64,000 nucleotides of DNA from the NCBI RefSeq assembly GCF_036195045.1, contig NZ_CP108100.1, forward strand, positions 8,246,001-8,310,000, in the 5' to 3' direction. The translations under genes and the position numbers were made by a program. This DNA comes from Streptomyces sp. NBC_00236 (GTDB lineage Bacteria; Actinomycetota; Actinomycetes; Streptomycetales; Streptomycetaceae). Below are positions 42,174 to 51,602 of the stretch, in pieces. Position 1 is the first letter of the stretch. Each line of letters starts with the position of its first letter. The notes beneath the pieces were generated by a model that had not been told where the DNA came from, made no database searches, and was given only the letters and a program-made list of their open reading frames with translations.

Positions 42174-43146
42174 TCACGGGGACCCAAAGCCTGACCAGGC
42201 GTAGGTGCCCGGTTGCAGGCTGTGTGCCTCGCCCGCCCGGGTCGGCTCGGTGTCGTCATACTCAACCTGGTGGGCCAGGATCGCCATCAGGTCACCGTCG
42301 GCGAACCGCTCGACGGTAGCCGCGGTGCCCAACGCCCGGTCGACCGCGTCGATGCCGTGCAGCTTGGCAAGTGCGACCGCATCGGTCATCTTCGCCAAGA
42401 CCCGACGCACTCCTGTGTCGCCGGCTTCCTGCAGCCACAGTGCCGCACCGGGCCCCAGCGCCAGGAACTCCGCCTCGGCAGGGGTGGTCGGTGTCGGCAC
42501 CTGCTTGCCGCGGGAGCCCTCGGGGTAGTGGGCGTCGTCGATCCGCGGGTTGCCCGGGGTGGAGCGGGCATGTCGGGCCGCCTCCACGGGCAGGCCCCCG
42601 GTCATCGCGGTGACGATCAGGTCATCGCACTGGAAGCGAACCCAGACGCTCTGCTCGATCAAGGCGTGCGGCACCGAATAGCGGACCGCGTCGACCTGGA
42701 TCGTGGCGTCCTTGCCGACCAGCCGGCTCTGCCCGAACGCTGCGGTGAACGCGTGCTGAGGCACGGGATGCAGCCGCTGACGTTCCTCGGCGAGCATCTG
42801 GGCGGGGACCCGCCGGGTCTCCCGGTCGATCTGCCCGTTGACCTCGGCCATGAAGCTGTCGCAGGCCGCCAGCAATGCCTGGAAATCGCGGTACTCCTCG
42901 CGCAAGTTCACCGCAGTCGGCACCAGGTCCCGCTTGGCGATGCGGACCGTGGCCTCCGAGCCACCCTTGGACTCGGGGTCGGCGGGCAGGCACATGCGCA
43001 CGACCGTGCCGTAGTACCGGCCGATCGGCACGATCTCAGGGTTGCGAATCGCGATCCGGGCGACGTGCTTGACCGTGACGGTCTTCTCGTTGTCGGTCAG
43101 GCAGTACGTCGGCACCCCGCCGACCAGCCGGAAGCGCGCCCCCATC
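42174..43146 (-). pseudogene. istA: IS21-type transposase IstA, 5'-truncated (element A)
   Basis: About 320 residues of the C-terminal two thirds remain: FRLVGGVPTYCLTDNEKTVT (second catalytic Asp), DPESKGGSEATVRIAKRDLV (catalytic Glu), then the Mu-transposase-like C-terminal barrel (VRYSVPHALIEQSVWVRFQC). The helix-turn-helix and the first catalytic Asp are gone. The open frame continues upstream into a DUF4262 gene in the same direction, giving a chimeric reading frame. Confidence 0.75.
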
Positions 43147-43599
43147 CCAGTGGAAACGGCCTTCGGCATCAGGCCACGCGACTTGCACTACAGGGAGAGG
43201 CGGCCGCCGGTAGAAGCCGATGGCCTGCCCGAAGAAGGTCCGGTGCCAGCCACGATCAACGTGCCTGAGTGCGACTCGATGGCCGGCGACAACATCAGGA
43301 TGGCTCTGGCCGTCTGCCAGTGTTTCGCCTGCGGCAGACCTCTCTCCGAGAGGGTTGAGCATGCGATGCATCGCGTGGACATCGAGCCCGCACATGGCGA
43401 GTTCAGGTCCGCCGTGTGTGTGCGCGAGGCCGATCGTGTAAGCGAATCCAGGACCGATCTCGTCTTCGGGAACCAGCACGACGTGCCATCCGTGCTGCTG
43501 CACATGCTCGATGACCGTCAGATCCATGCGATCCGCTTCGTCCCGGTCGCCGTAGTCATGGCAGAGGACACAACGGCACTGGAACGGATCATCAGTCAT
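43147..43599 (-). pseudogene. DUF4262 protein, 3'-truncated by IS21 element A
   Basis: It starts at ATG 43599 and reads MTDDPFQCRCVLCHDYGDRD, IEHVQQHGWHVVLVPEDEIG, PGFAYTIGLAHTHGGPELAM, the standard DUF4262 domain, to VVQVAWPDAEGRFHWD. The normal last ~15 residues are replaced by IstA-derived sequence read in another frame (to 43036). The function of the family is unknown. Most of the domain is still present, so some activity is conceivable. Confidence 0.75.
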
Positions 43600-43883: not shown

Positions 43884-44034
43884 ATGGACGTCGACCTCGC
43901 CCCACCAAACGGCGTTGGCCCTTTACGGATCGGTATGACTCGACACGCGGCCAACACCGCGTTGGACTCGCTCCGCGATCCTTCTGTGATATCGGAGTCC
44001 GACCGGTCGGGCCAGCACGTGTTCCGGCCAGCGG
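43884..44034 (+). pseudogene. 5' half of a conserved gene split by IS21 element B
   Basis: ATG-initiated MDVDLAPPNGVGPLRIGMTR, HAANTALDSLRDPSVISESD, RSGQHVFRPA. The related protein family continues ...SGLMVSIHC(A)RDLLEAIELGRP, which is exactly what resumes at 46886 after the insertion. The join is out of phase by one base, so the gene was or became frameshifted. A similar C-terminal half is found at 52898-53232. Confidence 0.7.
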
Positions 44035-44160
44035 TGTCGGCGTACGGACTTTTCTCCCCAGATGCGTACGGACGAACGTCCCCGGCTCTGGCCGCAGGCA
44101 GCGGCAATGGGATAGAGGATTTCGGTTGAGATCGATGGCCCGAGCAGGGACACTCACGCG

Positions 44161-44535
44161 ATGAGCTTCAGCACATCGTCTGAGCCGATCGAGCGAGGGT
44201 GGGACGAGCCCTGGTATCGGGTCAGCATGGAGAACTTCCAGGCGTCGTTCGTGCCCAGCGACGACGAGGACTTGGACGAGGTCTGCAACGTCGATGTCTT
44301 CGTGACTCTGGAGGACGGATCTTGTTGGACCGCGACCGTGTTCACCGTCGTGGAAGTCGAGCGCCTGATGAAGCTCTGGGCAGGGACCGACGAGGCCCTC
44401 GGGGGCCGGTATTTCTGGGTCTCGGATGGTCTGATCGTCAGAGATCCCGGCATCGACAGTATGACCGGCGTGATCGCCGGCCTGATCGAGAACGGCGAGT
44501 TCTCCGAGATCTTTCAACGGGTGATCGACGACTGA
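44161..44535 (+). CDS. Passenger hypothetical protein inside IS21 element B
   Basis: 124 residues from ATG, acidic, with MENFQASFVPSDDEDLDEVC, NVDVFVTLEDGSCWTATVFT, VVEVERLMKLWAGTDEALGG, RYFWVSDGLIVRDPG. Small alpha/beta acidic proteins with this kind of composition are common as immunity proteins or orphan genes in Streptomyces; no firm family is recognised. It lies 126 bases inside the left end of the element and is convergent with istB, so it moves with the IS. Good codon bias suggests it is maintained. Confidence 0.75.
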   Translation: MSFSTSSEPIERGWDEPWYRVSMENFQASFVPSDDEDLDEVCNVDVFVTLEDGSCWTATVFTVVEVERLMKLWAGTDEALGGRYFWVSDGLIVRDPGIDSMTGVIAGLIENGEFSEIFQRVIDD

Positions 44536-44569
44536 TCAAGTGCTCGGCTGCCGGAGGCGTCGTGGATGG

Positions 44570-45340
44570 TTAGGCCACGTCGTTCTCTCGCTCGATGGCC
44601 TTGAGACGGTTTTTGAGCCGGTAGCTGGGGCCGTTGATGGAGACTACTTCGCAGTGGTGGAGGAGCCGGTCGAGGATGGCGGTGGCGAGGACCTCGTCGC
44701 CGAACAGTTGGCCCCATTCGCTGAAGGTCTTGTTCGAGGTCAGGATGATCGAGCCCTTCTCGTAACGCTTGGAGATGACCTGGAAGACCAGGTTCGCCTC
44801 CGCGCGTTCGAGGGGCTGGTAGCCGACGTCGTCGACCACGAGGACGCTCGGTCGCAGGTAGGTGCCGAGCTTGTTCGTCAGCCGTCCCGCGGCCTCGGCG
44901 GCCTTGAGGTTGCGGACCATGTCGTCGAGGCTGGTGAAGTAGATCGAGTAGCCGGCCCGGCAGGCCGCGACCGCCAGGGCGACGGCGATGTGCGTCTTGC
45001 CGACCCCGGGCGGACCCAGCAGGGCGGCCTTCGCTTTGCCGTCGACGAACGAGAGGGTGGCAAGGTCCTTGACCTTCCGCGGGTCGAGGTCGGGCTGGAA
45101 GGAGAAGTCGTATTCGTCGAGCGTCTTGTGGTGCGGCAGCCGGGAGAGCCGCAGGCCCTGGCGGAAGCGGCGGTCGTCGCGGACGGCGAGTTCCTCGGAC
45201 AGCACCAGGTCGAGGAAGTCGAGGTAGCCCATCTTCCCCTCGTCGGCCCGACGGGTGTACTCGTTGATCGTTTCGGCCAGGTGGGGCAGGCCGAGCTTGC
45301 CGGCCGTGTTGCGGATGCGGGTGGAGACCAGCTCGCTCAA
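44570..45340 (-). CDS. istB: IS21-type transposition helper ATPase IstB (element B)
   Basis: 256 residues. Walker A GPPGVGKTHIA, Walker B VLVVDDVGYQPL, sensor region ILTSNKTFSEWGQLF, and RLKNRLKAIERE near the C-terminus. Normal length for IstB. Its ATG overlaps the istA stop by four bases, as in functional IS21 elements, so the pair is translationally coupled. Confidence 0.93.
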   Translation of the reverse strand: MSELVSTRIRNTAGKLGLPHLAETINEYTRRADEGKMGYLDFLDLVLSEELAVRDDRRFRQGLRLSRLPHHKTLDEYDFSFQPDLDPRKVKDLATLSFVDGKAKAALLGPPGVGKTHIAVALAVAACRAGYSIYFTSLDDMVRNLKAAEAAGRLTNKLGTYLRPSVLVVDDVGYQPLERAEANLVFQVISKRYEKGSIILTSNKTFSEWGQLFGDEVLATAILDRLLHHCEVVSINGPSYRLKNRLKAIERENDVA

Positions 45341-46755
45341 GACGTTTCCCTCGTGCTCGGACGGGTGGTGAAGGGACGGGTTCCGGTCAGCTCGTCATAG
45401 ACCGACAGAGGTCGGCGACCGACCTCGACGCGGGTGGCCGCAGCCTGGTTCAGCAGGGCCTGCAGAGGTCCGGCCTCCTCGCCCCGAGGACGCTCTTGGC
45501 GGGGCTGGGGCAGGACGTCGCTGGTTGTGGTGCGACGTCCTCTGCCGGTGGGCAGGCCGTCCCAGTGGGCCTCTTCGACGACGCGGACCCCGCGGCCGAT
45601 CGCCCGAGGATGGGTCGCCAGCAATGTCTCGCCGCTGCTGGCCGCGACGGTGGAGTGCAGCATGATCTGCGACTTTGTGGCCCGGATCTCCACCAGCTGA
45701 CGCGGTCGGACCCTGCGGGCCGGGACCGAGTAGAGGTTGCCGCCGAAGGCGACCAGGCAGTCCTTGCCGACCGGCCGCAGGTGCCGTTCGGCCACCAGAT
45801 ACGGGGTTGGCGGCAGCGGCTTGAGAGCCATGTGATCACGGGCCGCCCGCTCGCCGATGATCTGCTGGTGGGTCCTGTGGGCCTGTGCCCGCCGTTGCGG
45901 GACCCAGGTGATGAAGGCGGCGTCCAGCTCCTCGACGGAGGAGAAGGATCGGCCGGACAGGACGTGGTCGCGGACGATGAGGACTTGCCGCTCGACGCGT
46001 CCCTTGCCGGTGGGCCGGTAGGCGGCCAGGACGTCGATGTCGAAGTCGTAGTGGCCGGCGAAGCCGACCGCCTCCGGATGCAGCGGGACCGCCTCGCCCG
46101 GGGCGACATGGCGGCGGACGACGGTCTTGGTCCGGTCGTAGACGATCGTCATCGGGACGCCGCCGAAGTGGGCGAAGGCCCGGCGGTGGCAGTCGAAGAA
46201 CGTCTGGAGGTCCTGGCTGGTGGTGAAGCAGCAGAATGGGTCGCGTGAGTACGACAGTGTCATGTGGAACGAGTAGACCTTCGGGACACCCATGTGGGCG
46301 AGGATTTTGCCCTCGTCGCCCCAGTCGACCTGGGCCTGGGCGCCGGGGATGACCTCGAAGCGTCGGTGCATGCCCGCCAGTTCCTTCGGCGTGATGCCGA
46401 GTTCCTCGGCGATCCGGGGCCGGGCTTCCTGGACGTAGAGCTTGGTCCGCTGGTAATTGCCGGTGAACCCGTACTCCGCCACCAGCCGCTCGTGGATCAC
46501 TGCGGCCTTCATCAGGATCTCCGCCCGCAGCATCGAATCGACCAGCGGCGCGAACTCGTCGATCACCCTCGCCTTCGACCGCCCGTTCGGCGACCGGCGC
46601 GGCGGGGTCGCCGGCCCCGGCGCCGACAGATACTTGCGGACCGTCTTCCTGTCCAGCCCAGCCTCCCGAGCCACCTCCGACAGGCTGACCGCCCCGGATT
46701 CCAACAGACTCCGAAAGCGTCGCAGTTCCAACCAACGTTGCGGATCCAGGACCAC
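45337..46755 (-). CDS. istA: IS21-type transposase IstA (element B)
   Basis: 472 residues from the GTG reading VVLDPQRWLELRRF, which has GGGAGG nine bases upstream; a longer frame reaches 46818 without a ribosome-binding site. HTH near the N-terminus (VSLSEVAREAGLDRKTVRKYL). The catalytic core is VDWGDEG (first Asp), IVYDRTKTVV (second Asp) and GKGRVERQVLIVRDHVLSGR (Glu). The C-terminal barrel follows (CLVAFGGNLYSVPARRVRPR). All DDE residues and matching IS ends are present, so the element may be active. Confidence 0.92.
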   Translation of the reverse strand: MVLDPQRWLELRRFRSLLESGAVSLSEVAREAGLDRKTVRKYLSAPGPATPPRRSPNGRSKARVIDEFAPLVDSMLRAEILMKAAVIHERLVAEYGFTGNYQRTKLYVQEARPRIAEELGITPKELAGMHRRFEVIPGAQAQVDWGDEGKILAHMGVPKVYSFHMTLSYSRDPFCCFTTSQDLQTFFDCHRRAFAHFGGVPMTIVYDRTKTVVRRHVAPGEAVPLHPEAVGFAGHYDFDIDVLAAYRPTGKGRVERQVLIVRDHVLSGRSFSSVEELDAAFITWVPQRRAQAHRTHQQIIGERAARDHMALKPLPPTPYLVAERHLRPVGKDCLVAFGGNLYSVPARRVRPRQLVEIRATKSQIMLHSTVAASSGETLLATHPRAIGRGVRVVEEAHWDGLPTGRGRRTTTSDVLPQPRQERPRGEEAGPLQALLNQAAATRVEVGRRPLSVYDELTGTRPFTTRPSTRETS

Positions 46756-46880
46756 CGCCGACCGCCTCCCGTCGCCTCTCACCGACCAAGCAGCAGAGTG
46801 CCGAGCAGCAGGTCTCACCGCATCAACAACTGGCCCTTTTCATCCGTACGCGGGTGGGGACGTTCACGTGTACGCCGACA

Positions 46881-46988
46881 AGCGGGCTGATGGTCAGCAT
46901 CCACTGCGCGCGACATGCTCGAAGCCATCGAGCTGGGAAGACCGTCGTCCCAGGCGGACCGAGCGTTGTTCCAGGGTGTGGACGTGTT
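46881..46988 (+). pseudogene. Continuation of the gene split by element B, cut again by element C
   Basis: Starts with the AGCGG duplication and reads the DNA for GLMVSIHCA.DLLEAIELGR and VLFQGVDVF up to GACGTGTT, where the next IS21-type end starts. Compared with 52898-53006 it is nearly identical apart from a few substitutions and a 2-base deletion. The rest of the gene is missing here. Confidence 0.75.
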
Positions 46989-47151
46989 GATGGCGCTCTT
47001 TGAATCTCCCCAGGTGCCGCTCTTCAGGTGGCCAAACCTGCTCGGGTGATCTCCCCACCCATTGAGTGATCTTCCCGGCGTGTCGCACTGGTGTCGGCAT
47101 GTCGCGGAGAGCCTGCGTGAGCACGGAGTTCGGGCTGTTGAAGGGCCCTGG

Positions 47152-48498
47152 ATGCTCACCTGGGAGGAAGACGTGGATGCTCACGCATTGCGTCGCCAGG
47201 GCTGGTCGATTTCGGCGATCGCCCGGCACCTGGGGCATGACCGCAAGACGATCCGCGCGTATCTGAATGGCGAGCGAGTCTCCGGATATAGACGTCAGTC
47301 GCCGGACGCGTTCATGCCCTTCTTGGAGTACTGCCGTCAACGACTCAGCGATGACCCCCACTTGTGGGCCTCGACGCCTTTCGATGAAGTGGTGGAACTC
47401 GGCTATTCGGGCGGCTACTCAACGTTCACCCGGGCCCTGCGGCGATACAAAGCGCGACCCCACTGCGAACCATGCCGGGCTTCGAGCGGCCGCGACGTGG
47501 CGATCATCGCGCATCCTCCGGGCGAGGAGATCCAGTTCGACTGGGTCGAGCTCCCGGACCCGCCCGCAGAGTGGGGCGTCGGCGCCAACGCACATCTCCT
47601 AGTCGGCGCCCTGGCCCACTCGGGACGATGGCGGGCCGTGCTCGCGGAGGCGGAGACCTTCCCTCACCTGGTCCAAGCCATGGGCGCTGTGCTGCGGCGC
47701 CTGGGCGGAACTGCCCGAAGGTGGCGGTTCGACCGGATGGCCACCGTCTGCCATCCGCCGACCGGACGGATCCTTCCGGCGTTCGCCGCCGTCGCAAAGT
47801 ACTACTGAGCCGGCATCGACATCTGCCCGCCCCGGCGGGGCAACCGCAAGGGCGTCGTTGAGAAGGCCAACCACTCAGCGGCCCAACGCTGGTGGCGAAC
47901 CGTCCCGGACGGCATCAGGATCGAGGCAGGCCAGAACGGCGTGGACAAGCTGTCCGTCCAGATGGACAGCCGCAAACGCAAGCTCGACGGAGCGTCGACC
48001 ACGGTCGCCGCGCTTGCCGAAGCCGAGCCTCTGCTGGAACTGCCGACCCGCCCGTTCCCCGCCGAGCTTGAGCAGACCCGCGTCGTCAGCCCGCAAGGAC
48101 TCGTCTCCTTCGCCGGCAACCACTACTCCGCCCCGCCCGGGCTGACCGGCGCCCACGTCACAGTCCGGATCCGCTTCGGCGAGGACGACCTGCACGTGGT
48201 CACCGCCGGCCGCGCGCCCACCACAGCCGGGCACCGGACGGAGCCGGGCAGACCATCCGGGACGCCGGGCACGTCATTGCCCTCGAACGAGCCGTTCTCG
48301 CTTCGTTCTCCGACAAGGCTCCCTGCCGCCGCACCGAGGTCCGCCGGCCCCCGTCGGCTGCAGCTCAGGCGGAAGCCGAAAAGCTTCGCGGCCGACCTGA
48401 AACAGACGTCGCGAACCGGGTCGTCATCGACCTATCTCACTACGCCGCCGTCGCCGACCGGCTGCGGCAGGCCCCACCCACCAGGAGCGCGAGAGTGA
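47152..48498 (+). pseudogene. istA: IS21-type transposase IstA, nonsense and frameshift mutations (element C)
   Basis: MLTWEEDVDAHALRRQGWSI, then the HTH SAIARHLGHDRKTIRAYLNG. The catalytic region GEEIQFDWVELPDPP follows. At 47806 a TGA interrupts KYY(G)AGIDICPPRRGNRKGV at a position normally glycine. Near 48225 the frame shifts (TAGRAPTTAGHRTEPGR versus the expected GAGQTIRDAGHVIALERA). The tail overlaps istB by four bases. This copy cannot make a full transposase without suppression. Confidence 0.8.
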
Positions 48499-49301
48499 GT
48501 GACACCATGCCGATGAGCGAGGCCCGCCGCTACCAGCAGCTGCGAGGCTACCTGTCCTACCTGAAACTCAACGACGACGCCGAAGCCCTTCCCCGCGTCC
48601 TGGACCAGGCTCGAGCCGAGCGGATGACTCTCACCACCGCTCTGGAGAAACTCCTCGAGATCCAAGTGGAGGCGACCGAAGCCCGCAAACTCTCCTCCCG
48701 ACTCAGGTTCGCCTGCCTGCCAGAACCATGGACCTTGAACGACTTCGACTTCGCCGCCCAGCCCGGCGTCGACGAGAAGCTCATCCGCGACCTGGCCACC
48801 CTGCGGTCCCTAGACAACGCCTCCAACGTCCTGCTGGTCGGCCTGCCCGGCGTCGGCAAGACGATGCTGGCCGTCGCACTCGCCCGCTCCGCGGTCGATG
48901 CCGGCCACCGCGTCTACTTCACCACCGCCGCCGAACTCGCCGCCAAATGCCACAAGGCCGCGCTCGAAGGTCGGTGGTCGAGCATCATGCGGTTCTTCGC
49001 CGGACCTCGCCTGCTCGTGATCGACGAACTCGGATACCTCCCGCTGCCAGGCGACGGCGCTTCGGCCCTCTTCCAGGTGATCAACCAGAGGTATCTGAAG
49101 CCGAGCACGATCCTCACGACCAATGTCGGTATTGCAGATTGGGCAGGCGCCTTCGGCGACGCGACCGTCGACGCCGCGATGCTCGACCGGCTCCTTCACC
49201 GCGCTGCCGTCGTCGGTTTCGACGGACCGTCCTACCGTCTCCGCTCGCACCAGTCCCACGCCGACAACCGCCGCAAAGGGGTGACCGGACGTGCTGGTTG
49301 A
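48495..49301 (+). CDS. istB: IS21-type transposition helper ATPase IstB (element C)
   Basis: 268 residues from GTG. Walker A LPGVGKTMLAVALA, Walker B RLLVIDELGYLPL, and FLTTNVGIADWAGAFGD-like sensor (ILTTNVGIADWAGAFGDATV). It starts within the end of the broken istA frame. It is intact and of normal length even though its partner transposase is not. Confidence 0.9.
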   Translation: MSDTMPMSEARRYQQLRGYLSYLKLNDDAEALPRVLDQARAERMTLTTALEKLLEIQVEATEARKLSSRLRFACLPEPWTLNDFDFAAQPGVDEKLIRDLATLRSLDNASNVLLVGLPGVGKTMLAVALARSAVDAGHRVYFTTAAELAAKCHKAALEGRWSSIMRFFAGPRLLVIDELGYLPLPGDGASALFQVINQRYLKPSTILTTNVGIADWAGAFGDATVDAAMLDRLLHRAAVVGFDGPSYRLRSHQSHADNRRKGVTGRAG

Positions 49302-50270: not shown

Positions 50271-51602
50271 TCATGAGTCCGTGCGAGTACTCCGCAGGTG
50301 CGCCGGCACGGCCCACCACTGGTCCGGGCGGTCCACGACCGGGGCGTCGGGGCCGCTCTCGCCGTACCGGGCTAGGCGCAGAAGGTAGGCCGCGATGCCC
50401 GCTGCGCCCTGCATCCACGTCGTCTGGGGCGGCAGCAGCGGCGGGTCCTCGCGGTGTTCCAGAAAGCGCCAACGGGCGCCCGTATCATCTCTGATGGCCC
50501 GGTCGACCAGCGCATCGCCCATCCGGTGAGCGGCCCGCAGCAGGGTCTGCCTCCGCTGCGGCGCCCGGCAGTCCTGGGCGGCGTCCAGCAGGACGTCTCC
50601 GACGCCTGCCGTTCCGCAGCAGCGGCCGTCGTTGTCCCAGAAGCCGGGACGGAGGCGTTGCGGCAGGCCCGAGGTGAGGATCGAGGTCATACAGCGGTGC
50701 CGCAGCTCGTCGACGTCATGGCCCGCCACCTCGGCGACCCCTGCGTGTGCCAGTGCGGTGAACAGGTGCGAGGTGCCCGCCGGGCCGTGGCACCACGTGT
50801 ACGTCACCGGTTCCACCTCCCGTTTCGACGGGGGGATCGTGTGCGGGACGACGAAACCGGCGTCCTCCAAGGACCCCACCGAGAGGACGTGCCGGGCGCC
50901 TTCCACCGCGGCCTCGATGAAGTCCTGACGGTCCAGGGCGGTGCCCGCGACCGCCAGTGCGGCCGCGATGCCGGCGGTTCCGTGCGAGTAGTTCGGTGCC
51001 CTCGACGGCCTCCCCGGCGTCATGCCCCAGTCGAGGCCCGCTTCCGTACGGTCCGCCGCCCGCAGCAGCGCCTCGCCTCCCGTCGTCGCGATCGCCTCTG
51101 CGTACTCGCTCTTCGCCCAGACCGCCGTCATCACGACGCCCGCGGTCCCCATGATGACGTCGGTGAGGGGTGCGTCGGAGCCCGGTTCGAAATCGAGGGT
51201 GGTCTTCCACCCGTCGCCGGTCGCCAGGGCGGCCAGCTGCCGCAGTGCCACGGCTTCCTCGCCCGGGGCGAGCAGCCTGAGCGCCGTCGCGTCACCGGCG
51301 AGGCCGTCGTACAGCGAGGGTTCCGTTCGCTGCCCGGCCTGTGCCGACAGCCTGGTCACGATGCCGGTCGCCAGTGCCGCTTCCCGCGCGCTCAGCTCCC
51401 GGTACTGCGCGATCTCGACCAGCACCGGGGCCAAGCCGGCGATCCCTGCGTACAGCGAGTCGCGGTCCTGTGGCGGCGACACGGCTTCCGGACCGCCCTC
51501 CACCACCGCCTGCACGAGCCATGGGCCCTCGGCCTCGCGCACGTGGTCCAGCACCCACGACCAGGCGGCCTCGCCCACGTCCCGATATACGTCGCTCCTC
51601 AT
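50271..51602 (-). CDS. LanC-like (lanthionine synthetase C family) protein, stand-alone
   Basis: 443 residues. The alpha/alpha toroid repeats end in the G-x-x-G motifs of LanC cyclases: LYAGIAGLAP, LYDGLAGDAT, IMGTAGVV, NYSHGTAGIAAAL (204-216), TWCHGPAGTSHL (C271), GRCCGTAGVGD (C328-C329) and WMQGAAGIAAYLL. C271 and C328-C329 correspond to the zinc ligands, with the CCG form found in LanM-type cyclases instead of the C-H-G of NisC. LanC enzymes catalyse cysteine addition to dehydro-residues in lantibiotics. No lanB, lanM dehydratase or precursor gene is visible nearby. Confidence 0.92.
   Translation of the reverse strand: MRSDVYRDVGEAAWSWVLDHVREAEGPWLVQAVVEGGPEAVSPPQDRDSLYAGIAGLAPVLVEIAQYRELSAREAALATGIVTRLSAQAGQRTEPSLYDGLAGDATALRLLAPGEEAVALRQLAALATGDGWKTTLDFEPGSDAPLTDVIMGTAGVVMTAVWAKSEYAEAIATTGGEALLRAADRTEAGLDWGMTPGRPSRAPNYSHGTAGIAAALAVAGTALDRQDFIEAAVEGARHVLSVGSLEDAGFVVPHTIPPSKREVEPVTYTWCHGPAGTSHLFTALAHAGVAEVAGHDVDELRHRCMTSILTSGLPQRLRPGFWDNDGRCCGTAGVGDVLLDAAQDCRAPQRRQTLLRAAHRMGDALVDRAIRDDTGARWRFLEHREDPPLLPPQTTWMQGAAGIAAYLLRLARYGESGPDAPVVDRPDQWWAVPAHLRSTRTDS

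Follow-up and report, generated by a model that had tools for sequence, protein, structure and literature searches.

A Streptomyces IS21-family insertion sequence with an interchangeable cargo slot carries a probable orphan immunity gene

Introduction

Insertion sequences (IS) are mostly viewed as selfish DNA with transposition genes alone. Those with passenger genes are known as transporter IS (tIS) (PMC9330008, PMC3129680). The ends of IS21 carry two repeats each (PMC10122671), and neither passenger nor cargo occurs as a word in two papers on the IS21 mechanism, one of them PMC10122671. In polymorphic toxin systems, the toxin gene is followed by the immunity gene (PMC3482391). Orphan immunity genes on mobile DNA have been described in the acquired interbacterial defence (AID) clusters of Bacteroidales (PMC10470768), for which protection was demonstrated, and on E. 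coli plasmids (PMC12546727). Here we describe a 2846-bp IS21-type element of Streptomyces sp. NBC_00236 that contains, in addition to istA and istB, a passenger gene for a 124-residue acidic protein. It lies in a stretch of 64,000 nucleotides (contig NZ_CP108100.1, positions 8,246,001 to 8,310,000), which is called the window and in which all coordinates are given unless a locus is named.

The element shares with the IS21 family (IS21, IS5376) a DDE transposase and an AAA+ helper encoded by overlapping genes, TG...CA termini, a short target duplication and ends with more than one repeat (PMC10122671). It differs from members of that family by a third gene, which occupies a defined slot separating istB from the terminal end. 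As in transporter IS (PMC3129680, PMC9330008), a gene unrelated to transposition lies between the IS ends; unlike the transporter IS described there, these elements form one closely related family, some of them empty and others loaded, in which at least nine cargoes can replace one another at a single position. With polymorphic-toxin immunity proteins and polyimmunity loci (PMC3482391) the passenger shares its small, acidic product and remote homologs directly downstream of HINT/RHS toxins, and it differs from them in that the IS-borne genes stand alone, without a toxin, and match no curated family. With AIDs (PMC10470768) and the E. coli plasmid orphans (PMC12546727) the element shares the placement of a probable orphan immunity gene on mobile DNA. 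AIDs are gene arrays, whereas here there is one gene per IS, in Streptomyces, with immunity predicted from sequence.

What appears new is the interchangeable slot in an IS21 transporter IS; transporter IS and mobile orphan immunity genes were already known. Among the open-licence papers listed in literature searches, none mentioned an IS21 cargo slot or IS-borne toxin-immunity genes in its title or abstract opening. Overall, the locus is an IS21 transporter IS with a cargo slot whose passenger, in the window, probably confers toxin immunity.

Results

A complete IS21-family element

The element occupies 44035-46880 and is flanked by the 5-bp target duplication AGCGG, read directly at 44030-44034 on the istB side and at 46881-46885 on the istA side. 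Its left end, a 53-bp terminal end beside istB (44035-44087, plus strand), starts with TGTCGGCGTAC (44035-44045) and was delimited by comparison with empty relatives, in which the same end directly adjoins the stop codon of istB. The 53-bp right end, beside istA (46828-46880, minus strand), was read directly and by comparison of ends, and its outermost bases are GTACGCCGACA (46870-46880). Internal imperfect repeats are present within each end (82% over 22 nt, 80% over 20 nt). The istB open reading frame (ORF; 44570-45340, minus strand, TTG start) encodes the helper ATPase and matched PF01695 (IstB_IS21, E=1.3e-104) and NF038214 (E=1.2e-82). The istA ORF (45337-46818, minus strand, GTG start) encodes the DDE transposase and matched the IS21 transposase model NF033546 (E=4.1e-70, score 236.6 versus a cut-off of 160). 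The two genes overlap by 4 bp (45337-45340). A preliminary description of this DNA had reported readable ends with AGCGG flanks and intact, overlapping istA and istB, and both statements were confirmed, the first also by recurrence of the whole element elsewhere.

The element shows both defining features of the IS21 family: IstA with its AAA+ helper IstB, and terminal inverted ends that contain internal repeats and are flanked by a short target duplication. A usual, not strictly defining trait of the family, istA and istB alone between the ends, was present in 20 of 43 copies compared and absent from the window and 22 other copies. A 5-bp duplication occurs by chance at about 1/1024; recurrence of the whole element at other sites with other duplications is the stronger evidence. 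The source genome (8.33 Mb, one contig) has one full copy, approximately 40 kb from the contig end, and four further matches of 37-223 bp each. The segment 44035-46880 is a complete transporter IS of the IS21 family and is probably active; IstA and IstB would mobilise everything between both terminal ends and generate the 5-bp target duplication.

Recurrence of the element with its passenger

Homologs of the passenger were searched for in 392 genomes of the genus Streptomyces (E up to 1e-3) and were present in 94; 60 stretches around homologs were taken for reading. In addition to the window, five of these stretches contained the whole element end to end (L037, L048, L049, L052 and L079). Four of these had 5-bp duplications of their own (AATGT, CCGGG, GCCCG and CTTCT), and L037 had none. 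The passenger of L079 (CTTCT) was interrupted by an insert of ~1 kb, L049 and L052 each had a frameshift in istA or istB, and in L036 the element was cut off by its contig. A scan of named contigs (30 loci, with contigs repeated from the earlier set counted once) gave the further duplications CCCGG (S. mangrovisoli), ACTGC (Streptomyces sp. E2N166) and GCTGG (Streptomyces sp. NBC_00154). The element with its passenger was found in this way at seven sites beyond the window, with seven distinct 5-bp duplications. NBC_00154 has three copies with 0-1 differences in 2839 bases, one with a duplication, one without and one at a contig end. From the seven other duplications and these near-identical copies it follows that element and passenger move together and have done so recently; a gene unrelated to transposition thus travels inside IS ends, as is required of a transporter IS. 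The preliminary description had regarded the element as a passenger-bearing variant of a family that normally holds istA and istB only, and had proposed a search for the same istA-istB-passenger order with different duplications, which was found at all seven sites.

Many copies are decayed, and some have an end and the passenger without istB (L039, L040), as would be expected if the passenger were a piece of chromosome that had ended up by chance next to a single IS copy or among IS fragments. That explanation is contradicted by the recurring complete copies, with the same layout and near-equal length across eight duplications including that of the window, and by three near-identical copies in one genome; we consider it extremely improbable.

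In L038, L043, L051 and L132/L209 (four genomes), istB was broken at the same place (element position ~680-685). The 3.7-kb insert in L038 (L038:3047-6707) has integrase-type genes (Phage_integrase, E=4e-23) and that in L132 an integrase-like frame; istB may be the target of a site-specific element.

Empty and loaded copies

The passenger lies in a 482-bp slot (44088-44569), bounded by the terminal end on one side and the istB stop codon on the other, which was compared across 43 copies. With istA-istB DNA alone as the query, 346 of the 392 genomes gave a match at E up to 1e-3, although many matches were short. From among the matches listed 40 places were taken, mostly those reaching the istB stop codon. 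In 36 of these an end could be located. The other four were excluded: L129 runs into a contig edge, another IS disrupts the end of L131, L160 yielded no end, and L162 has a broken istB and a further IS within it. Seven type-1 copies, meaning those with the passenger of the window and including the window itself, completed the set.

Twenty copies were empty and 23 loaded, a share that is not a census because seven copies were picked for their passenger. In empty copies the 53-bp end lay against the istB stop codon, with a slot of -1 to 2 bp (31 bp in L159), and 16 of the 20 had duplications. The slot measured 418-623 bp in 22 of the 23 loaded copies and 1463 bp, insert included, in L079. Among the 19 loaded copies with both ends, duplications flanked 12, six had none and one was at a contig end; the 12 represent 10 sites, since L137/L138 and L148/L149 are same-genome pairs with equal duplications. 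The loaded copies read had one gene per slot and not the tandem array of an AID cluster or polyimmunity locus. The slot beside istB takes interchangeable cargo of at least nine types, which the earlier sequence-only reading had missed, as it had a likely function for the passenger. In the arrangement we propose, the istB-side end would either lie directly against the istB stop codon or be separated from it by one small gene.

The preliminary description had stated that its reading would be refuted by copies without the passenger whose left end lies between 44535 and 44570. Taken literally, that case is approached by copies found here, which lack the passenger and have their 53-bp end just 1-2 bp away from the stop codon of istB. 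They do not prove the passenger external; they are empty versions of the element, because in the window the same end lies at 44035, outside the passenger and adjoining AGCGG.

The passenger's conservation and its identical position in many copies would suit an accessory gene of the IS, such as a regulator or helper of transposition. With 20 of 43 copies empty, 16 of them within duplications, the passenger is dispensable for the IS; unrelated genes replace it in the slot, and its homologs are found without IS sequence and beside toxins. An accessory role is therefore very unlikely.

Cargo types and their turnover

The 23 loaded copies carry nine unrelated types of cargo. Five were confirmed inside duplications: type 1, the 124-residue passenger of the window (seven copies); type 2 (140 residues, isoelectric point (pI) 4.49, five copies); type 5 (174 residues, three copies); type 6 (181 residues, on the opposite strand, one copy); and type 9 (128 residues, three copies), which is glyoxalase-like (PF18029, E=2.6e-24). 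The others were seen in one copy each: type 3 (181 residues), type 4 (164 residues, basic, with hydrophobic stretches), type 7 (139 residues) and type 8 (104 residues), lipoprotein-like by a sequence motif. Six of the nine (types 1, 2, 3, 5, 6 and 7) are acidic and soluble-looking, with pI 4.05-4.95. No Pfam or NCBIfam family matched types 1-8 above its cut-off.

Genes of these types were also seen in other arrangements. In L308, two type-6-like genes stand in tandem and resemble a small immunity array. Type-2 and type-1-like genes are adjacent on the same strand, outside IS, in L213, L214, L211, L215, L169 and G028:C902.

A tree of istA-istB was made from the 39 copies with both ends. The empty or loaded state required nine changes on it, at least seven of them on well-supported branches; by type, four changes were required for type 1, two each for types 2 and 5 and one for type 9. 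The cargo labels were more clustered than shuffled labels, as expected of related copies. The sister group of the type-2 copy L126 was made up of three type-1 copies, the window among them. On the evidence of this tree, cargo is repeatedly gained, lost or swapped relative to istA-istB.

The spacers of the ends track the cargo, being GCAGAG-like with type 2 and CCCCAG-like with type 1, even in copies with closely related istA-istB such as L126. A swap through a single crossover in istB (half-element exchange) was considered and rejected for L126, because both of its ends go with its cargo. Recombination between copies would be the likeliest route of cargo into the slot.

Two further structures bear on such routes. 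An element of 1039-1040 bp without a transposase (L206:958-1996; L041/L206 and L320) has two facing istB-side ends with CGCGG on both sides and carries types 1 and 2 in convergent orientation; L319 is a near-copy. Because both genomes share similar flanks, and L319 has nearly the same, the element represents one event. In vitro, IstA is able to join a pair of left ends or a pair of right ends (PMC10122671), so transposase-less cassettes could be moved in trans. In L181 (L181:4922-7858, NZ_CP108532), an IS end and type 2 are joined to a different istB, whose 3' end resembles istB of this family and whose whole protein is 43% identical; a second end was looked for and none was found. L181 is possibly a chimeric element. 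An apparent two-gene cargo in NZ_CP109170, with type-2 and type-1-like genes beside istB, was discarded when the end profile showed an empty 2362-bp IS adjoining the pair.

The passenger gene and its putative expression

The passenger gene (44161-44535, plus strand) lies between the left end and istB and is convergent with istB, as had been described; its 124 codons specify a protein of pI 4.05, which bears out the acidic character given to it. No match was obtained against Pfam, NCBIfam or PADLOC families. The ratio of nonsynonymous to synonymous substitution rates (dN/dS) was 0.13-0.43 for the passenger (21 pairs, seven IS-borne copies) and 0.06-0.19 for istB (6 pairs, four copies). The values among IS-borne passengers indicate that the protein is maintained by selection.

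A promoter-like block, TTGAGA and GACACT separated by 17 bp (44126-44154, plus strand), ends 6 bp before the passenger ATG. The pattern, which was composed after the sequences had been viewed, was upstream of 17 of the 46 homologs listed, every one of at least 63% identity; 15 of the 17 had IS sequence and two (L044, L045) did not. Leaderless mRNAs are common in Streptomyces. From the position of the block, it would yield a leaderless passenger mRNA, and the cargo of the window may be expressed from this promoter-like block of its own with a probable leaderless start.

Two observations concern homologs at other places. In five genomes (L083, L087, L088, L091 and L093), type-1 homologs (44-52%) share a conserved chromosomal location and its neighbouring genes. 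A 652-residue protein in L080 (L080:3280-5238) has S1 RNA-binding domains (PF00575, E=3.7e-29) and a C-terminal type-1-like domain.

Toxin partners of passenger homologs

Remote homologs of the passenger (29-42% identity) were read at 22 loci, comprising 20 chosen weaker matches of the genus search and two plasmids. A toxin-like domain of ~95 residues was present at 15 of the 22, where the homologs are 31-38% identical to the passenger. The gene bearing it was directly upstream in 12 loci and ended -76 to +62 bp from the homology; in L170 and L188, a 116-residue C-terminal piece stands alone in frame. The carriers tested include PT-HINT proteins in L185 (E=1.4e-17) and L165 (E=1.7e-18) and, in L191, a protein with RHS, DUF6531 and WXG100-like domains, while those of L184, L197 and L198 matched no Pfam family. 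The position expected of an immunity protein, directly downstream of a polymorphic toxin gene, was found for remote homologs (31-38%) only.

The toxin-like domain is basic (pI 9.7) with conserved K, Y, R and F positions. A search of PDB sequences with its profile gave nothing beyond two matches at E 0.8-0.9, which were attributed to chance. It may be a RelE/BECR-like RNase, for which the PDB search gave no supporting match. The domain was found in none of the 60 stretches that surround closer homologs, nor in any of 19 genomes in which the passenger itself or a homolog of at least 63% identity occurs, and both of two control genomes have it. Because of this absence, the IS-borne genes are orphans. 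Among closer homologs outside IS, local gene calls, with few neighbours run against Pfam, gave no common toxin partner. The possibility that the passenger is the antitoxin of a neighbouring type-2 protein gained no support, type 2 being itself acidic and a separate cargo.

A second cargo type has a comparable partner. Relatives of type 3 outside IS adjoin another C-terminal domain in four of six loci (L176, L254, L255 and L257; not L253 or L256), which in L257 is on a PT-HINT protein (E=4.3e-19). Judged by sequence motifs only, this domain may be deaminase-like. On a Streptomyces changanensis plasmid, one stretch holds a type-5 relative (44%), a type-1 gene (82%), an RHS protein, two barstar-family genes and a DUF4253 gene. 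For type 7 there was no match in the plasmid collection, the sole place searched.

Weighing the immunity function

With these partners, the passenger of the window is probably an orphan immunity protein against a polymorphic toxin. The acidic protein would bind and block the basic C-terminal domain of HINT/RHS-type polymorphic toxins released by rivals. A host without that toxin domain would gain protection, and the IS may benefit through being retained.

Several results weigh against this interpretation. No toxin was beside any homolog closer than 31-38%, and the toxin target may have changed, because the paired homologs are just 31-38% identical to the passenger. The domain was missing from seven of the 22 remote loci, two at 29-31% identity and five at 41-42%. 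A passenger-profile search of PDB sequences gave no match. Selected upstream stretches of homologs gave no toxin partner for types 2, 5 and 6; types 3, 4, 7 and 8 lack a confirmed duplication, and glyoxalase-like type 9 is not an immunity family. In L126 both ends, not one, accompany the cargo, for which a single istB crossover is inadequate. Finally, no IS sequence beyond the passenger was present in 44 of the 60 stretches around homologs (42 at no more than 68% identity to the passenger; two, L044 and L045, at 84%). The preliminary description would also have been refuted had the passenger occurred solely at IS-free loci; although these are frequent, it does not, and IS sequence extended beyond the passenger in 16 of the 60.

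An alternative is an unselective cargo bay, in which any small host genes caught beside istB are carried awhile and the passenger has no present toxin-immunity role. The cargo types are unrelated and include glyoxalase-like, membrane-like and lipoprotein-like proteins, and toxin partners were traced for relatives of only two of the nine. Against it, the passenger is under purifying selection, both types with traceable partners pair with polymorphic-toxin C-terminal domains, and six of the nine types share the acidic, soluble-looking character. We regard such a bay as rather unlikely and prefer toxin immunity as the role of the passenger.

Flanking sequences

Relics of two other IS21-type elements lie on either side of the element (42174-43169 and 47062-49301), with istA-like identity of 24-28% and istB-like identity of 39%. 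A DUF4262 gene (43036-43599, E=4.8e-38) overlaps the relic at 42174-43169. A minus-strand ORF at 50271-51602 may, by sequence motifs alone, encode a lanthionine-synthetase C-like protein.

Discussion

Types 1 and 3 are traced, through their relatives, to two different toxin domains, and the cargo of the window seems to have its own promoter; that these features belong to a shuttle for immunity genes is a reading on which we are evenly divided. For the subgroup as a whole, there may be about an even chance that this set of Streptomyces IS21 elements ferries single orphan immunity genes against polymorphic toxins by way of the fixed istB-side slot, which would acquire, exchange and disseminate them, the protection aiding persistence of the IS.

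The slot offers a small, countable system for the gain and loss of IS cargo. The findings also point to two immunity families for which no curated model exists and to a likely toxin domain amenable to testing. If the proposed function is true, the smallest mobile elements would be linked to bacterial warfare, and immunity genes could spread without their toxins.

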